Below, piece by piece: positions 5,225 through 32,318 of a stretch of DNA of 33,577 nt. Both the position numbers and the translations under genes were made by a program. A model generated the notes under the pieces. It ran no database searches. It was not told where the DNA came from and worked only from the letters and a program-made list of their open reading frames with translations. The stretch comes from a virus. Within the stretch, counting starts at the first letter, position 1; each line of letters opens with the position of its first letter. The DNA lies in the IMG/VR virus record IMGVR_UViG_3300047998_000025, positions 1 to 33,577 of that record. One strand, 5' to 3'.

Positions 5225-6751
5225 ATGGCTCAACAATTACAAAGCATTAATCTTGTAGCTCCTGCCTTTAAAGGAATCAACACAGAAGATTCTCCGCTGG
5301 CACAAGATCCGTCGTTTGCTGATGTTGCTGACAATGCAGTTATTGACAAGCGTGGACGTATTGCGTCTCGTAAAGGTTACAGTGTTATCACAACAAACAA
5401 GACTGAGTTAGGTACTGCAAAGATTAGAGCAATCAAGGAGTTTGAAGATAACGCTGGTAACACCAAAGTATTTTCTGTAGGTAACAACAAGATACTTAGC
5501 GGCACAACTACGTTAGCTGATGAAACTCCCGGCAGTTATACAATTACTCAAGACAACTGGAAGATGGTTAACTTCAATGACAAGATTTATTTCTTTCAGC
5601 GAAGTAACGAACCACTTGTTTATGATGCTGTAGGAGGCGCTGTAGTGACTCTGAGCAGCGTTTCTGGTGCTGCTGGTGTAACCAGTGCTATATATGGTAA
5701 CGAAGTTCTAGCGGCTTATGGACGGCTTTGGGTAGCTGATATAAACAATGATAAGTCTACTGTTTACTGGTCTGATTTATTAATAGGTCATGATTGGTCA
5801 GGCGGTACTAGCGGATCTATTAACTTAGCTAAGGTATGGCCTGATGGCTACGACGAGATTGTTGCGTTGGCTGCACACAACGGACTATTAATTATTTTTG
5901 GTAAGCACAGCATTGTTGTGTACCAAGGAGCTGAAGCACCAGCAACAATGGCGTTAGCAGATACAGTATCAGGGGTAGGCTGTGTTGACAGAGATACTGT
6001 ACAATATACAGGTACTGACGTGTTGTTCTTGTCACATACTGGACTAAAAAGTTTTGGTAGAACAATACAAGAAAAGTCAATGCCTATTACAAGTCTTTCT
6101 AACACAATTACAAAAGACATTATTGGATTGCTTCAAAATGAGACTGAGTTTTATCGTTCAGTGTATAGCCCAGAAGAAGGTTTTTACCTGTTGACTTTTA
6201 CAGCTCAAGACACAACTTACTGTTTTGACGTTCGAGGAACACTAGAGAATGGTGCGTATCGTGTAACACGTTGGCCCGGTACAGGCTTTACAGCTTACGG
6301 TAGAAAAAACGATGGGACTTTATTAATTGGTAACGATGAAGGTATAGGCAGCTACTCAGGATATAGAGACAACGGGGAGAAGTATCGCTTTAAGTACTAC
6401 AGTCCCGGTCTAACCTTTGGTGATCCTTCACGTCTTAAGATACTTAAAAAACTACGCCCTACTATTGTAGGTGCTAACAGTGCCATTATGTTTCTTAAAT
6501 GGGCGTATGACTTTGGTACGTTTTTTCAAACTTCAGAGTTTACTGTTGGCAACCAAGTAACAGGTTACTTTAACGAAGACGAGTACAATAGTACAGCAGA
6601 ATTTACAGGTGGTGATTTAACGTCACGACGTGGAATAAACACTACCGGAGGCGGTGGAGTTATAACAATAGGGTTGGAAGCAGACATAGACGGTTCGGGT
6701 TTGTCTCTCCAAGAGATTAACGTATTAGCACTAATGGGTAAAGTACTATGA
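5225..6751 (+). CDS. Tail tubular protein B-like (T7 gp12 type nozzle)
   Basis: The 508-residue product has the N-terminus seen in tail-nozzle proteins of this type (INTEDSPLAQDPSFADVADN, then RGRIASRKGYSV). It continues with beta-propeller-like segments containing RLWVADINNDKSTVYWSDLL and GLLIIFGKHSIVVYQGAE. T7 gp12 is longer, about 790 residues, so this is a compact version. It would form the tip of the short tail, binding tube A and contacting the host surface. GAGG six bases before the ATG is the ribosome site, and the stop overlaps the next gene (ATGA). Nozzle identity is also supported by direct adjacency to the gp11-like gene. Confidence 0.78.
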   Translation: MAQQLQSINLVAPAFKGINTEDSPLAQDPSFADVADNAVIDKRGRIASRKGYSVITTNKTELGTAKIRAIKEFEDNAGNTKVFSVGNNKILSGTTTLADETPGSYTITQDNWKMVNFNDKIYFFQRSNEPLVYDAVGGAVVTLSSVSGAAGVTSAIYGNEVLAAYGRLWVADINNDKSTVYWSDLLIGHDWSGGTSGSINLAKVWPDGYDEIVALAAHNGLLIIFGKHSIVVYQGAEAPATMALADTVSGVGCVDRDTVQYTGTDVLFLSHTGLKSFGRTIQEKSMPITSLSNTITKDIIGLLQNETEFYRSVYSPEEGFYLLTFTAQDTTYCFDVRGTLENGAYRVTRWPGTGFTAYGRKNDGTLLIGNDEGIGSYSGYRDNGEKYRFKYYSPGLTFGDPSRLKILKKLRPTIVGANSAIMFLKWAYDFGTFFQTSEFTVGNQVTGYFNEDEYNSTAEFTGGDLTSRRGINTTGGGGVITIGLEADIDGSGLSLQEINVLALMGKVL

Positions 6752-6981
6752 GTAACTATACGAAGACCACTGACTTTGCCGCTAAAGACAGTCTACCTTC
6801 CGGTGACAGCGGTAAAATCATTAAAGGCGCTGAGTTTGAAACAGAATTTGACGCTATATCTACAGCTATCGCTACAAAAGCAAACACAGAGTCACCGACT
6901 TTTACAGGCACAGTAACAATTCCTGCATTGACTTTTACAGGTACGCTGTCTACAGGAACTATTGATGGAGGTACATACTAA
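6748..6981 (+). CDS. Short fibre-like virion protein
   Basis: This is a 77-residue protein. Residues 1-48 (MSNYTKTTDFAAKDSLPSGD, then KIIKGAEFETEFDAISTAI) look like the capsid- or tail-binding N-terminal domain of many marine podovirus fibres. Residues 50-77 are fibre-like beta repeats (SPTFTGTVTIPALTFTGTL), and the protein ends in TIDGGTY. It stops where a fibre normally goes on to a receptor-binding part, so it is either a small adaptor or a fibre base. The same C-terminal IDGGTY ends the stalk protein at 30645-32318. It overlaps both neighbours (ATGA at the start, TAATG at the end). Recognition is from general familiarity with such phages. Confidence 0.7.
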   Translation: MSNYTKTTDFAAKDSLPSGDSGKIIKGAEFETEFDAISTAIATKANTESPTFTGTVTIPALTFTGTLSTGTIDGGTY

Positions 6982-17903: not shown

Positions 17904-18397
17904 TCAATAAGTTCCTCTACCGGCGTCAGCTTGTACTGATCTAAAAAGTAGGCTGGTTTGTTTCTACCAAAAGGATCGCCCCAGTTTTCCTCTTGCACTA
18001 TCTCATCGTAAGTAGCATAACCTACTACACTATATTCAGGAAAGCTACCCACCACTAACAAATACAAATCACACTGGTCGTTCTTCTTGTGAGGCATAAC
18101 AATAAGTCTGCCTGTTCTGTACTTGGTGGTCTTCACATCGACAGTCTTACCTTTACATATCAAGTCATGTGTAGGTAGTTCGCTTGCTTGAAAGTCTGTC
18201 TCAATATCGTAGTACACATTGAGTATCTTTGCTGCTGCCATCTCAGAAGCAACGCCATCAACATCAATGCTCTTGTACGACGTAACTTCTAGTATGTCTG
18301 ATTTACCAAAGCCTTTCTCTCTAGCATTCTCGTAACGCATACGAGCGATAGACTCACAAACCTTCTGCTCATTCTTACCTAACTTATAAGATAGCAC
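17900..18397 (-). CDS. Putative PD-(D/E)XK nuclease-like protein
   Basis: The start chosen is GTG 18397 (165 residues), because GAGGAGAAGGA lies just before it; a GTG at 18412 would place that site inside the gene. Residues 48-60 (GVASEMAAAKILN, with Glu52), THDLI (Asp78) and TVDVKTTKY (Asp87, Lys89) give the E...D...(D/E)xK layout of the restriction-like nuclease fold, on helix-strand-strand secondary structure. The substrate is unknown; processing of replication intermediates or of host DNA is likely from its place between primase-helicase and polymerase. Endonuclease I elsewhere in the operon is a separate junction nuclease. The gene overlaps helicase by 14 bp. Confidence 0.65.
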   Translation of the reverse strand: MLSYKLGKNEQKVCESIARMRYENAREKGFGKSDILEVTSYKSIDVDGVASEMAAAKILNVYYDIETDFQASELPTHDLICKGKTVDVKTTKYRTGRLIVMPHKKNDQCDLYLLVVGSFPEYSVVGYATYDEIVQEENWGDPFGRNKPAYFLDQYKLTPVEELIE

Positions 18398-20003
18398 TGT
18401 CCTTCTCCTCACGCTGTGTTAATCGTCCAGTAGCTTCGTTGTAGAACACCTCACACGCCTTACCTGTCTTGCCAGTGTACCTATTCTTCAACACACGCAG
18501 CACGGTCGTGTTTCTGACAACAGCGTCGTCACTCTGGCTGTTACGTTCAGCACCAATGACCGCATCAGAGAGCTGTGCAATCGACGCAGAGCCACGTAAC
18601 ATACCAAGGCTAGTGACAGCACCATCCTCCAACTGCTTCCCTTCAGGGCGTCGTAGGTGGCTCACAAGGAACATACAAATACCCATCTCCTGTACGAACG
18701 TACGCAGCTTAGTCATGATCATGTCCAAGGCACGTCGTTCATCACCGTTGCTCTGGTCAGAGACAAGGATAGAAACGTGATCGAGTACGATATAACGTAC
18801 GCCTAGTACCTTGACGAAGTATCTCATACGGCCCAGTACGTTTTCTATCTCGTTACTACCGAAGTGTTCCCACAGATAGACACGGTTCTCATAGTCCATC
18901 GTATCGTACACAAGGTCAATGTCTTGGTCGTCGTACTCACAGTCAGGTAAGTGGATAGGCTTGTTCAGTTCAAGACCGACAAGCCCACGCATGGTACGCT
19001 CAGGTGTCTCTTCAAGAAACATCAGACCAAGGTTGTCTTCAGACTGCGCCATGATGGAGCTAACAATCTCACGTAGGAGAGTAGACTTACCTAGTCCAGA
19101 GCCAGCACAGATCGTCACCAGCTCCGCCGTGCGTATACCGTAGAGGTGTTTGTTCAGTCCCTCGAATGGGTACTGTACCTCTGCCTTGGTGAGTGGCTTC
19201 TTAATCAAATCACGTAGCTCACCAGCACCAACGATACCTTCAGGTGTGTAAGGCTGGGCAGACCAGAACACTTTGGTGTACATCTCCGCCTGATTGTTAA
19301 CAAGATAATCACACGCATCCTTGTAGCCGTTGACGTGCTTAACAATCCTCGCCTTGTTACCGAACAGATCAGCACACTCCTTCGCTGCCTTCTGTCCCGG
19401 CTCGTCAGCATCGAAACAAATAACAATGTTCTCGAAGCTGTTCAACCAATCATAAAAAAGGCGACAGTCCTTTGCCGCCGACGTTGCACCGTTACGGACA
19501 CTGACAACGGGATACTTACTACCTGTCATTTGGTGAGCCGCTAACGCATCATACTCACCTTCAACGATAGTCACATACTTACCACCTTCAGGGAACAAGT
19601 GTTGGCCATACATTCCTGCGTTCTTCCAATCTCCAACGATACTGAACCGCTTGTCAGGGTTACGAACCTTAGCAGCTATCGGCTTTGTTGGATCGTCAGG
19701 GTTGTAGTAACCGAATGTTGTAACTTCACCTTGCTTGAGTGCTGCGTACTTCTTCGCCGTCGTTCCTGTAATGAGACGGTCAGTAATCGTACGGTACTCC
19801 GCTGTGATTAACCGATGTTCTGTCTGACTGAACGATGGCTTTGGCGCATCGCTGATAGATCCTAGCTCTCTCACGTTATCCCTCGTTGCGGCTTTGGTGT
19901 ACTTGCTACAGTTAAAACAATAACTAGAGCCGTCCTCGTTGTACGATAACGCATCACTGCTACCGCAATCTGAACACGGTTGGTGCGTCTCAGTGAATGC
20001 CAT
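18384..20003 (-). CDS. Primase-helicase (T7 gp4-like)
   Basis: From ATG 20003 (539 residues; AGGA upstream) the domains are a zinc-binding primase domain (CSDC and CFNC: Cys10, 13, 29, 32), TOPRIM (VEGEYDAL 147-154, FDADEPG 197-203), and a DnaB-type helicase with Walker A GSGLGKST (301-308), Walker B YIVLDH (404-409), LVSHLRRPEGK (446-456) and GSASIAQLSDAVIG (471-484). T7 gp4 is 566 residues. It unwinds the fork and makes primers for the polymerase. An in-frame ATG at 20039 would extend it by 12 residues but collide more with the preceding small gene. Confidence 0.93.
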   Translation of the reverse strand: MAFTETHQPCSDCGSSDALSYNEDGSSYCFNCSKYTKAATRDNVRELGSISDAPKPSFSQTEHRLITAEYRTITDRLITGTTAKKYAALKQGEVTTFGYYNPDDPTKPIAAKVRNPDKRFSIVGDWKNAGMYGQHLFPEGGKYVTIVEGEYDALAAHQMTGSKYPVVSVRNGATSAAKDCRLFYDWLNSFENIVICFDADEPGQKAAKECADLFGNKARIVKHVNGYKDACDYLVNNQAEMYTKVFWSAQPYTPEGIVGAGELRDLIKKPLTKAEVQYPFEGLNKHLYGIRTAELVTICAGSGLGKSTLLREIVSSIMAQSEDNLGLMFLEETPERTMRGLVGLELNKPIHLPDCEYDDQDIDLVYDTMDYENRVYLWEHFGSNEIENVLGRMRYFVKVLGVRYIVLDHVSILVSDQSNGDERRALDMIMTKLRTFVQEMGICMFLVSHLRRPEGKQLEDGAVTSLGMLRGSASIAQLSDAVIGAERNSQSDDAVVRNTTVLRVLKNRYTGKTGKACEVFYNEATGRLTQREEKDSAIL

Positions 20004-20172
20004 AACGTCCTGCCCCCATGTCAGTGTAAAGCTCGTCAACTTCTTCGTCGTTCATTGCTTCTAACAAGTCAGTAAAGAAACCACCTGCGATGTTCATAGC
20101 TTCAATGAGAGTCAACGTCTCAAGCTGTCGTTCAACAAGCTCACTTACTTTCTGTTCTTTAGAGATACTCAT
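19990..20172 (-). CDS. Small hypothetical protein before primase-helicase
   Basis: The 60-residue product (MSISKEQKVSELVERQLETL, then a MNDEEVDELY end) is helical and acidic. AAGG lies 10 bases upstream, and the end overlaps the helicase start by 14 bp, so it may be coupled to helicase translation. No family was recognised. A 72-bp AT-rich gap separates it from the gene upstream, the longest break inside this operon. Confidence 0.62.
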   Translation of the reverse strand: MSISKEQKVSELVERQLETLTLIEAMNIAGGFFTDLLEAMNDEEVDELYTDMGAGRYGIH

Positions 20173-20786: not shown

Positions 20787-20960
20787 TCACTCCTTCGCGT
20801 CTATGAAACGCTGTAGCTTTCCCATCTCTTTAAGTTTCTTCAATGCGTCCCGCTCAATCTTCTGCACTGTTATGCGGTGCAGTCCTAACGCCTTCGCTAC
20901 TTCTTCCTGCGTCATGTGATAATCTGCTGGGCTGCCGTGGTACTTCCGTTTGTCTGCCAT
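20787..20960 (-). CDS. Tiny HTH protein resembling sigma70 region 4
   Basis: Also below a 60-residue cut-off: 57 residues from ATG 20960 (GAGG five bases upstream) to TGA 20789-20787. Residues 16-46 read MTQEEVAKALGLHRITVQKI, then ERDALKKLKEM. This is the 'L(T/S).EEVA..LG(L/V)(T/S)R..V..IE..AL.KL' pattern of sigma70 region 4, the part that binds the -35 element and the RNA polymerase beta flap. The other sigma regions are missing. The first 15 residues are basic (MADKRKYHGSPADYH). It sits in the early block of a phage with no RNA polymerase in view. It may steer host polymerase or act as a simple DNA-binding repressor or activator; both fit the motif. Confidence 0.78.
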   Translation of the reverse strand: MADKRKYHGSPADYHMTQEEVAKALGLHRITVQKIERDALKKLKEMGKLQRFIDAKE

Positions 20961-21185
20961 CTATGCCTCAAGTGTTGCCTGTCCTGTCACTTCGATATGT
21001 AACCACCCTATCCATGCAATGTAACTAGCTCCGCTGTATTCGTCTGCCGGTACGTATGCCGTGGACAATCTAAAGGTACCAGTGAAGTACAAGTCGATCA
21101 AGTGTCTGTCCGTCTCGATAACGAGTCCGTTATTGCCAAAGTCTGTCACGTATTTGTAGTACCGTTTAGCCGTTGTGATCTTCAT
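20961..21185 (-). CDS. Hypothetical early protein
   Basis: The 74-residue product begins MKITTAKRYYKYVTDFGNNG and is strand-rich (LVIETDRHLIDLYFTG, SYIAWIGWLHIEVTG). GGGAGG lies eight bases before the ATG, which overlaps the upstream stop (ATGA); its own TAG directly touches the HTH gene's ATG. No family or motif was recognised. Confidence 0.68.
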   Translation of the reverse strand: MKITTAKRYYKYVTDFGNNGLVIETDRHLIDLYFTGTFRLSTAYVPADEYSGASYIAWIGWLHIEVTGQATLEA

Positions 21186-22683: not shown

Positions 22684-22863
22684 CTGTGTCTGTGTAAATT
22701 ATATATGTACCCACCTAGACACAAAAAAGAGTCAAATTAGACCCTAAAATAACCCCTAGTTATCTAACAAGAAACAATATATAAATCAATAACATGATCG
22801 GTTCAGAATCTGGACCGTGCTGGTACAGTTTAAAGGACAATACAGTCTTGTTAAAAATAATGC

Positions 22864-22892
22864 TTGACAAATCCCTAAAAGTATGGTACAAT
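22864..22892 (+). promoter_or_regulatory. Strong sigma70-type promoter for the rightward operon
   Basis: TTGACA (22864-22869), a 17-bp spacer and TACAAT (22887-22892) differ from consensus by one base. GTATGG precedes the -10 box, as in the promoter at 28228. Transcription should start near 22899 and read the terminase, endolysin and portal genes after a leader of about 120 bases. An A/T-rich tract lies upstream. Confidence 0.8.
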
Positions 22893-22908
22893 AAATAGTA
22901 TATTATGT

Positions 22909-23006
22909 CTTTAAAGATTCTTTACCGCGCTGAGTAAGATAAATTTTATATGATAATTATTAAATGTATGTCATATAAGCACGGTAACGAGACTTTAAAG
23001 AGTCTT
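22909..23006 (+). promoter_or_regulatory. Pair of 14-bp repeats in the leader, operator candidate
   Basis: CTTTAAAGATTCTT (22909-22922) and CTTTAAAGAGTCTT (22993-23006) differ by one base. They lie 84 bp apart, near eight helical turns. The first lies about 10 bases after the predicted start; the second sits just before the first gene's ribosome site, and AGACT/AGTCT around it can form a small hairpin. Repressor or antiterminator binding is possible. Confidence 0.5.
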
Positions 23007-23019
23007 ATAAGAGGTATGT

Positions 23020-23430
23020 ATGTCAGATGTTGATAATCCTCCTCGCCGAAAGCGTGGAAGACCGCGTAAAAGTGACGTTACAACAGTAAAAAAAGGTAAT
23101 CGCAACGCTGTTGGTCGCCCGAAGGGTGACGCTGCCGTCATTAACGAATACAAAGCACGTATGTTAGCGTCTCCAAAGTCCCGAAAGGTGTTAGACACTA
23201 TCTTTGACGCAGCTCTTGACCATGATCATAAGAATCAAGCAGCAGCGTGGAAGCTTGTTATGGACAGGATACTGCCCGTTGCAGCGTTTGAGAAGGATAT
23301 TGTTAAGGATGGTGGACGTAACGCCATTCAGATTAACATTAGTGGTGTTGGTACAGTAGATGTAAGTGAACCTACAACAGTTGCTACGTCTAGCGACATT
23401 ATAGAAGGCGAAGTAGTCGATGAATCTTAA
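23020..23430 (+). CDS. Probable small terminase subunit
   Basis: The 136-residue protein opens with an AT-hook-like basic stretch (PPRRKRGRPRKSD, residues 6-18, then NAVGRPKGD). A helical core follows (YKARMLASPKSRKVLDTIFD, then HKNQAAAWKLVMDRILPVAA), then a strand-rich acidic tail. Being first in the packaging operon, three genes before large terminase, with a DNA-binding N-terminus, fits the subunit that selects the packaging site. GAGG lies six bases upstream. The helical core matches my memory of small terminases of marine podoviruses, but no catalytic motif can confirm it. Confidence 0.65.
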   Translation: MSDVDNPPRRKRGRPRKSDVTTVKKGNRNAVGRPKGDAAVINEYKARMLASPKSRKVLDTIFDAALDHDHKNQAAAWKLVMDRILPVAAFEKDIVKDGGRNAIQINISGVGTVDVSEPTTVATSSDIIEGEVVDES

Positions 23431-27984: not shown

Positions 27985-28231
27985 AACCAAAGGCGGTCTT
28001 ACTAAATGGTTTAAAGAGGATTGGGTGGACGTTAAAACGGGTAAGCCTTGTGGTCGTAAGTCAGCTACCAAGAGTAAACGTCCTTACCCTTCTTGTAGAC
28101 CTAAAGCGGTTGCAGCTAAGATGACCGCAGCAGAAAAAAAATCTTCTGCTAAACGCAAAACAGGACCGGCTAAAATTAAACACGCAGTAACAGCGTCAGG
28201 TCGTAGAAGAAAGTCTACAAAAAAGTCTTGA
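27977..28231 (+). CDS. Small basic Cys-containing protein (DUF5872-like)
   Basis: From ATG 27977 (84 residues) the product starts MSKTKGGLTKWFKEDWVDVK, then TGKPCGRKSATKSKRPYPSC, then RPKAVAAKM and a Lys/Arg-rich tail. The 'GGL..WF.E.WVD....CGR....YP.CRP' pattern matches DUF5872-type proteins. Two cysteines (25 and 40 by my count) may bind metal or form a disulfide. A GTG at 27965 was rejected because it overlaps the upstream gene further. Function unknown. Confidence 0.76.
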   Translation: MSKTKGGLTKWFKEDWVDVKTGKPCGRKSATKSKRPYPSCRPKAVAAKMTAAEKKSSAKRKTGPAKIKHAVTASGRRRKSTKKS

Positions 28232-28256
28232 CATTTAACAAAATGTATGGTATAAT
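28228..28256 (+). promoter_or_regulatory. Consensus sigma70 promoter for head genes
   Basis: TTGACA (28228-28233), 17 bp and TATAAT (28251-28256) are perfect consensus. The -35 begins inside the stop codon of the previous gene. GTATGG before the -10 matches the promoter at 22864. Transcription should begin near 28263 and give extra messenger for scaffold and capsid, up to the terminator at 30598. Confidence 0.85.
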
Positions 28257-28286: not shown

Positions 28287-28541
28287 ATGACACCCGAGCT
28301 TGAAACATACTTTAACAATTACAATGAATTGTTTAATCATGAAGGTTTCAAACAACTCGTTAGCGAACTTTCCAACAACGCAACGCAGTTAGCTGATATT
28401 CAAACAGTAAAAGACCAAGAAGATTTATATTATCGTAAAGGTCAAGTAGCTGCTTTTGCAACTGTTATCAATCTACAAGGTACTATTGAAGCTGCTCGTG
28501 ATCAAGCAGAAGCAGAGGCTGAAGAACCCGTAGATGTATAA
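28287..28541 (+). CDS. Hypothetical protein before scaffold
   Basis: The 84-residue product (MTPELETYFNNYNELFNHEG, then a helical FKQLVSELSNNATQLADIQT and an acidic Ala/Glu end) is wholly helical. GAGG lies 6 bases upstream, right after the strong promoter. The pattern (LYYRKGQVAAFATVINLQGT) recalls small proteins near capsid genes in marine phages. Function unknown; it may be a head assembly helper. It overlaps the zinc-ribbon gene by 8 bp. Confidence 0.72.
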   Translation: MTPELETYFNNYNELFNHEGFKQLVSELSNNATQLADIQTVKDQEDLYYRKGQVAAFATVINLQGTIEAARDQAEAEAEEPVDV

Positions 28542-30630: not shown

Positions 30631-30644
30631 AGTAGGAGTAGTTG

Positions 30645-32318
30645 ATGCCTCTTTTTCGTGGAACAGGCGGTTCTGGTGATGCGAGCACAGATGCTTACGC
30701 TTCAGAAGTAGCTACCAGTGCACAGACTGCCACTACTAAAGCAAACGAAGCTAGTGTTTCTGCAGCAGCAGCGGCAACTTCTGCTAGTAACGCAGCAGTC
30801 TCTGAAGCCTCTGTAGCGGCTGATGCAACAACAGCGTCTAACGCAGCATCTGCAGCACAAACAGCGCAAACTGCGGCAGAGACAGCTAAGACAGCGGCAG
30901 AGACAGCTAAGACCGCAGCAGAAACAGCTCAGACAGCAGCAGAGACAGCAAAAACTAATGCTGAAACTGCAGAGACTAATGCAGAGACCGCAGAGACTAA
31001 CGCTGCTGCTTCTGCTACGGCGGCTGCGTCTAGTGCAACCAGTGCTGCTGGATCAGCTACAACAGCCACAGCTCAAGCTACAACGGCTACGACTCAGGCT
31101 AGTGCAGCATCAACATCAGCCAGCAATGCTGCTACCAGTGAAAGCAATGCTTCTACTAGCGCAACTAACGCAGCAACTTCTGAAACGAATGCGTCTACAT
31201 CAGAAACTAACGCAGCAACGTCGGCTAGTAACGCAGCAACCAGTGCTACTAATGCAGCCAGTTCTGCTACGTCTGCATCAGGATCTGCTACGACTGCTAC
31301 AACGCAGGCAAGCGCAGCATCAACTAGTGCAAGCAATGCAGCAACTTCTGAGAGCAACGCTTCTACGTCAGCAACTAACGCTGCCTCTAGCGCCTCCTCA
31401 GCGTCCACTTCAGCCACAAACGCAGCTACTAGTGCTACTGCAGCACAAACTGCACAAACGGCTGCAGAGGCTGCTCAGACGGCTGCTGAGGCTGCTCAAG
31501 AAGCTATTGATGGTTTATATTTAGGTGCGTTGTCTTCTAACCCTACTGTTGATCTTAACGGCAACGCAGTAACTGTAGGTGACTGGTACTTTAATACTAC
31601 TGACAATAGTACAAGAATTTACGACGGAACTAACTGGGATTCAATTAATCCTAATCTTGTTAACGATTCTACACCACAGCTAGGCGGTGACTTAGACCTA
31701 AACAGCAACGACATTACGGGTACAGGTAACGTCAACATCACAGGTAACGTAGTACTTACAGGTACTGTTGATGGCCGTGACGTAGCAACAGATGGCGCCA
31801 AGCTAGATGGCATTGAAGCTAGTGCTACAGCAGACCAAACAGCCGCAGAGATACGCACACTGGTTGACTCTGCTACTGACTCTAACGTCTTTACTGACGC
31901 AGACCACAGTAAACTAGACGGTATAGAAACAGGTGCTACAGGCGACCAAACCAATGCTGAGATTAGAGCCGCAGTAGAAGCCGCAACAGACTCTAATGTT
32001 TTTACCGATGCAGACCACACAAAACTAAATGGTATTGAGGCCAGTGCGGACGTAACTGATACAGCTAACGTAACAGCGGCTGGCGCATTAATGGACTCAG
32101 AGGTTACTAACCTTGCACAGGTTAAAGCCTTTAGCTCTGCTGACTACGCTACTGCGGCACAAGGTACTAAGGCTGATACGGCACACGGCTGGGGCAACCA
32201 TGCTAGTGTTGGCTATCTAACTGGCAACCAAACGATTACCCTTACAGGAGCTGTTACAGGCTCTGGTACAACATCCATTGCAACTACACTGTCAACGATT
32301 GACGGGGGAACTTATTAA
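30645..32318 (+). CDS. Tail fibre stalk protein
   Basis: From ATG 30645 (557 residues; AGGAG eight bases upstream; a TTG at 30642 is less likely) the protein has residues 1-25 as a base, about 25-290 made almost only of Ala, Thr, Ser, Asn and Glu/Lys in heptad-like repeats (TAAETAKTAAETAK, then SASNAATSESNAST), and a GDWYFNTTDNSTRIYDGTNW segment at about 308-327. Tandem repeats of about 43 residues (TDSNVFTDADHSKLDGIE) come next, and the C-terminus is TLSTIDGGTY. This is a trimeric fibre shaft. The stop overlaps the next fibre gene by one base (TAATG), so stalk and tip may be two chains. It ends in IDGGTY, like the short fibre protein at 6748. Confidence 0.82.
   Translation: MPLFRGTGGSGDASTDAYASEVATSAQTATTKANEASVSAAAAATSASNAAVSEASVAADATTASNAASAAQTAQTAAETAKTAAETAKTAAETAQTAAETAKTNAETAETNAETAETNAAASATAAASSATSAAGSATTATAQATTATTQASAASTSASNAATSESNASTSATNAATSETNASTSETNAATSASNAATSATNAASSATSASGSATTATTQASAASTSASNAATSESNASTSATNAASSASSASTSATNAATSATAAQTAQTAAEAAQTAAEAAQEAIDGLYLGALSSNPTVDLNGNAVTVGDWYFNTTDNSTRIYDGTNWDSINPNLVNDSTPQLGGDLDLNSNDITGTGNVNITGNVVLTGTVDGRDVATDGAKLDGIEASATADQTAAEIRTLVDSATDSNVFTDADHSKLDGIETGATGDQTNAEIRAAVEAATDSNVFTDADHTKLNGIEASADVTDTANVTAAGALMDSEVTNLAQVKAFSSADYATAAQGTKADTAHGWGNHASVGYLTGNQTITLTGAVTGSGTTSIATTLSTIDGGTY
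30860..31515 (+). repeat. Ala/Thr/Ser-rich repeats in fibre shaft
   Basis: The DNA encodes AAETAKT-type repeats, then SxTNAAT(S/T)-type repeats. A 32-residue block at 31080-31175 recurs at 31290-31385 (offset 210 bp) with identical amino acids but different codons at 19 of 32 positions, including serine TCN/AGY switches. The repeat structure is held at protein level only. Confidence 0.75.

Follow-up and report, generated by a model that had tools for sequence, protein, structure and literature searches.

A stand-alone protein resembling sigma70 region 4.2, encoded among the early genes of phages in which no RNA polymerase is found

What could a protein of 57 residues, resembling part of the promoter-recognizing end of a sigma70-family factor, be doing in a phage in which no RNA polymerase is found? 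The question is raised by a small gene on the 33,577-base stretch of DNA analysed here (the window), a complete IMG/VR virus record that is linear, lacks end repeats and probably represents an incomplete genome. A preliminary description had placed the gene at 20787–20960, and it lies exactly there, on the minus strand, which that description had omitted. The gene and its neighbours are as follows.

20787–20960, minus strand: gene for the 57-residue stand-alone sigma70 region 4.2-like protein (open reading frame list, Pfam, alignment-based model, dN/dS)
20961–21185, minus strand: 74-residue ORF without a known domain, immediately upstream of the gene (a neighbour kept in close relatives)
18384–20039, minus strand: primase-helicase, downstream of the gene on the same strand (a neighbour kept in relatives)

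Reading from 20960 to 20787, the ORF encodes MADKRKYHGSPADYHMTQEEVAKALGLHRITVQKIERDALKKLKEMGKLQRFIDAKE. Its ATG abuts the stop codon of the upstream 74-residue ORF, and a Shine-Dalgarno-like GAGG lies a few bases 5' of the ATG. No convincing domain is found in the small ORFs of the leftward cluster around the gene, which is followed by the primase-helicase, DNA polymerase A, a 5'-3' exonuclease, an endonuclease and ribonucleotide reductase; terminase, portal and capsid are encoded rightward from about 23,020. In the relatives examined, the gene is likewise surrounded by early genes, the primase-helicase in most cases coming right after it. Where flanks are available, it is on the replication-gene strand and mostly between the primase-helicase and the non-coding region that separates the two gene directions. 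From this position we infer that the gene is expressed early.

Two further arrangements were seen among the relatives: in three family members (L162–L164) no marker genes of this phage group are seen around the gene, and in one relative (L070, 5507–5882) two diverged copies of the sigma4.2-like gene lie side by side, the end of one overlapping the start of the other. Elsewhere in the window, two tail-fibre-like ORFs (6748–6981 and 30642–32318) both end in IDGGTY just before the overlapping ATG of the next gene. A frameshift was considered for the ORF ending at 32318 and set aside; the arrangement looks like ordinary coupling, because the next ORF overlaps the stop codon and runs off the contig.

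The 57-codon ORF is a real gene, and purifying selection on its family is strong: measured against the window copy, dN/dS is mostly 0.04–0.1, and for copies that are 81–89% identical in protein it is 0.05–0.11 at a dS of about 1. Close relatives (81–100% identical) occur at 14 loci in IMG/VR, and an alignment search of that database finds 178 stretches that encode relatives of the protein; from those fetched, a profile recovered 65 distinct relative sequences. The ORF is therefore more than a chance reading frame, given this selection and the number of stretches that encode it.

The family has not surfaced among cultured phages. A tblastn search of these with three divergent members returned no family homologue, the sole match being a 219-residue ORF for a SigK-type sigma factor, hit at its C-terminus. 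The record that encodes it (L167, MT836863.1) is an unannotated "Bacteriophage sp." entry from human faeces, and probably comes from a bacterial scaffold wrongly labelled as phage, since the SigK-like ORF adjoins one that by eye looks ComM-like. Profile searches of the cultured relatives SIO1, HMO-2011, HTVC104P, HTVC115P, HTVC119P, P12053L, CRP-113, Syn5, MQM1 and ctYwJ313 found no family member; Sigma70_r4 (PF04545) gives one weak match among cultured relatives, in an annotated HNH endonuclease. Bacterial genomes searched with one family member gave a single partial match. No paper describing the family was found in a literature search, most subscription papers lying outside its coverage.

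The resemblance to sigma70 region 4 that had been proposed for the protein was followed up, as had been suggested, with profile searches. Sigma70_r4 is the first Pfam match of the window protein (32 bits, E 9e-8, cut-off 24.1), and 53 of 54 relatives match it at E≤0.01 (best 6e-12). When family profiles are run against all PDB sequences, nearly all the matches are C-termini of sigma factors, mostly SigA/RpoD, with alignments that extend to the last residues of the primary sigma factors. NCBIfam likewise lists sigma models first: its sigma70-ECF model matches 54/54 relatives, although the window protein scores below that model's cut-off, a threshold meant for complete sigma factors, and RpoD_Cterm matches 40/54. 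The best PHROG overall is phrog_351, an RNA polymerase sigma factor (45/54 members).

An XRE or MarR match had been named beforehand as an outcome that would count against the sigma assignment, and on this point the result is divided: sigma profiles rank first, but HTH_3 (PF01381) also passes its cut-off, coming second for the window protein with 27.9 bits against 23, and matching 43/54 relatives (best 1e-7). The protein could on this basis be regarded as an XRE/Cro-like repressor whose sigma resemblance is superficial. We set that identity aside as second best and consider it quite improbable, as Sigma70_r4 exceeds HTH_3 both in the score of the window protein and in the number of members matched, and it is sigma factors that dominate the PDB lists and head those of NCBIfam. 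Judged by profiles, the protein is closer to sigma70 region 4 than to XRE or MarR, and its probable ancestor is the C-terminal part of a sigma70-family factor.

"Region 4" must, however, be narrowed to subregion 4.2, because only positions 19–50 of the 50 in the Sigma70_r4 profile are matched. With several relatives starting just four residues before the first methionine of the HTH, this partial match indicates that region 4.1 (H1 and H2) is absent throughout the family, while H3-turn-H4 and an H5-like tail are kept; the protein is not a complete Sigma70_r4 domain comprising 4.1 and 4.2. The alignment-based model, preferred over a single-sequence fold that gave one continuous helix, has helices at residues 18–25 (H3-like), 29–46 (the H4-like recognition helix) and 49–56 (H5-like), with a pLDDT of about 90 in the core and low confidence for residues 1–14. 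The top Foldseek entries for this model are largely sigma region 4 structures, none of them at E≤0.001, and the VIA-align Z of about 3.5 is weak in absolute terms, as expected for some 40 residues. Given these values, the modelled fold supports the sigma4 assignment without proving it.

The known sigma70-family region 4.2 with its H5 (PF04545; the C-termini of RpoD/SigA and SigK) gives the best profile matches and shares with the phage protein the H3-turn-H4 signature E(V/I)xxxLxxxR...V..IE..AL.KL(K/R) and the L-x-x-F of the tail, of which L49 is conserved in 49/54 relatives and F or Y52 also in 49/54. The phage protein differs in lacking regions 1–3 as well as 4.1, and in a tail that the alignment places three residues nearer than that of sigma factors. 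It also differs in the residues that, in E. coli numbering, read the -35 element, R584, E585 and R588 (PMC2613000): the equivalent of R584 is kept in 46/54 relatives, but those of E585 and R588 are each replaced in 50/54. The idea that the protein replaces host region 4 is not supported by this comparison, with region 4.1 absent and two of the -35-reading positions each retained in only 4/54.

Two other groups of proteins invite comparison. In the Tfx family (TIGR00721), too, a sigma4-like HTH serves in DNA-binding regulators that are not sigma factors, as it appears to do in this protein; 42/54 relatives match the Tfx model at E≤0.01, although that model is absent from the window protein's own matches. 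Tfx proteins are archaeal and have an additional domain beyond the HTH, whereas the phage protein is HTH only. Among phage proteins, a related HTH occurs in short ones (about 60–70 residues), represented by phrog_7061 ("HTH DNA binding protein"), phrog_11306 and phrog_11187, which match 17, 12 and 5 members, respectively; these matches are weaker and patchier.

Could the rest of a sigma factor be supplied by another gene? In Bacillus subtilis, SigO and RsoA constitute a two-subunit sigma factor with the regions divided between proteins. By analogy, the 57-residue protein could be the region 4 half of a split factor, another phage protein providing region 2. Besides this precedent for a free region 4, such an arrangement has in its favour that no RNA polymerase is found in the phage: as had been claimed, PF00940 detects no T7-type or single-subunit enzyme in the 33.6-kb record or in long relatives of up to 46 kb, while recovering the polymerase of Pelagibacter phage HTVC119P as a positive control (E 2e-112). 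Yet Sigma70_r2 (PF04542), with its controls positive, is also not found in the window or in eight long relatives, the neighbouring small ORFs have no convincing domain, and region 4.1 is missing. Region 2, to be expected of a functional sigma factor whether single or split, is found neither in the 57-residue protein nor elsewhere in the window and these eight relatives, and a split factor is very improbable. As read from the available sequence, the absence of RNA polymerase and of region 2 is strong without being absolute, because the window, like most relatives, may be only part of a genome.

If the protein is not a sigma factor subunit, does it nevertheless act at the phage's own promoters? 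The preliminary description had pointed to two nearly perfect sigma70 promoters in the window and proposed that the protein gives timed control of them. The promoters, and the region in which the first of them lies, are as follows.

22864–22892, plus strand: sigma70-type promoter, TTGACA-17-TACAAT with TGn, 11/12 consensus match, recurring in relatives
28228–28256, plus strand: sigma70-type promoter, TTGACA-17-TATAAT with TGn, perfect 12/12 consensus match
22716–23019: non-coding divergent region of about 300 bp, strongly conserved in an alignment of 15 relatives

The promoters themselves are borne out, both with a spacer of 17 and TGn, and both recurring in relatives. That at 22864 lies about 130 bp upstream of the ORF at 23020, which heads the terminase/structural operon; that at 28228 precedes the ORF at 28287 and the scaffold and capsid genes, and several relatives have it at the corresponding position. 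Because both are near-consensus with an extended -10, we would expect the host holoenzyme to need no help at either.

Their dependence on the gene is a different matter. Relatives informative on this point are the 17 in which the operon head and the primase are both present and the 57-residue gene is missing; all 17, which are not independent events, keep a promoter of at least 10/12 with TGn in front of the terminase operon. The same promoter, TTGACT-17-TATACT, is shared by L033, L040 and L056, which lack the gene, and by L108 and L116, which have it. TTGACA-17-TACAAT is common to relatives whose recognition helices read HRITVQK, TRAEVQQ, TETDVKR and TQTDVKR, and conversely L011 and L014 have TTGTGG in place of TTGACA as the -35 before the terminase operon, with the -10, the TGn and the HRITVQK helix unchanged. 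Since the promoter is kept in gene-less relatives and is constant across differing recognition helices, the gene, on this comparison, is neither required for these promoters nor co-varying with their -35, and the proposed timed control of them finds no support. With E585 and R588 unconserved, the same comparison argues that the protein has no role at the two consensus promoters as a replacement region 4 that reads the -35.

The divergent region at 22716–23019 separates the leftward early/replication genes from the rightward packaging/structural genes, and is highly similar among relatives with differing flanks. It is the most obvious place for candidate regulatory sites. A search for operators there yielded TTTAAAG(A/G) repeats, which over the window are not clearly enriched beyond chance, with 7 copies against an expected 3.8. 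About 63 bp upstream of the 22864 promoter there may be a second, weak one (TTCAGA-16-TACAGT with TGn), and the leader beyond the 22864 promoter (22908–23001) contains CTTTAAAG palindromes as well as an incomplete long inverted repeat (TTACCG ... CGGTAA), which could be a candidate operator or an RNA hairpin.

We consider it reasonably probable that the protein acts on its own as a DNA-binding regulator of the sigma4.2 type and is produced along with the early genes. According to this model, the C-terminus of a sigma70-family factor would have kept H3-turn-H4 and the H5-like tail while losing region 4.1. The resulting three-helix HTH would be expressed with the leftward early/replication genes and act as a small sequence-specific transcription regulator, either a repressor or an accessory activator, in a setting where the host RNA polymerase drives transcription of the phage or host genome. 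DNA binding and a regulatory role are what we infer for the protein. The same binding could serve another purpose, such as replication initiation or packaging, for example as an HTH of the small-terminase type; the gene is upstream of the primase-helicase, and one member has a weak match to a PHROG of terminase small subunits. This is improbable, given that the database matches of the family are overwhelmingly transcription factors and that the terminase operon is on the opposite strand.

A regulator that binds DNA may also possibly touch the polymerase directly: in sigma factors it is H5 that occupies the beta-flap hook (PMC2988021), and the L-x-x-F tail is similar to it. Taken further, and in line with the occupation of the beta-flap raised in the preliminary description, the protein could be a sigma4 mimic. 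Its H5-like tail would dock in the hook, and region 4 of the host sigma would face competition or be displaced, so that host promoters relying on a -35 lose strength and the phage's extended -10 promoters go on working. Such docking would agree with the conservation of L49 and F/Y52 and with the profile alignments that reach the very end of the primary sigma factors. It also has a functional parallel: AsiA of phage T4 blocks -35 recognition, TGn/-10 promoters are immune to it (PMC2988021), and the phage promoters described here have TGn. T4 and these phages share the use of small proteins in the absence of their own polymerase, and AsiA and MotA retarget the host enzyme at sigma region 4; they do so, however, by binding sigma70 region 4 or H5 (PMC2988021), while the 57-residue protein resembles region 4 itself. 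Docking is weakened by the loss of H1 and H2, which also contact the flap (PMC2988021), by the presence of extended -10 promoters in gene-less relatives too, and by the fact that an amphipathic C-terminal helix could equally serve dimerization or packing. We regard docking as unlikely, though it is the leading alternative. More doubtful still is its general form, in which a widespread family of polymerase-lacking phages would deploy a pared-down sigma4.2-H5 protein that docks on the flap, competes there with region 4 of the host sigma and shuts down -35-dependent host promoters, their own consensus extended -10 promoters being built to survive.

Stand-alone HTH regulators of sigma4 type are already known, and the family described here adds another. 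Should it bind DNA as a regulator, it would extend the list of small phage regulators and help annotation, which often misses genes of this length. Should it dock on the polymerase instead, nature would have supplied a minimal sigma4 mimic, and phages a novel means of commandeering the host enzyme. Related phages with and without the gene provide a natural contrast, which makes the question testable.
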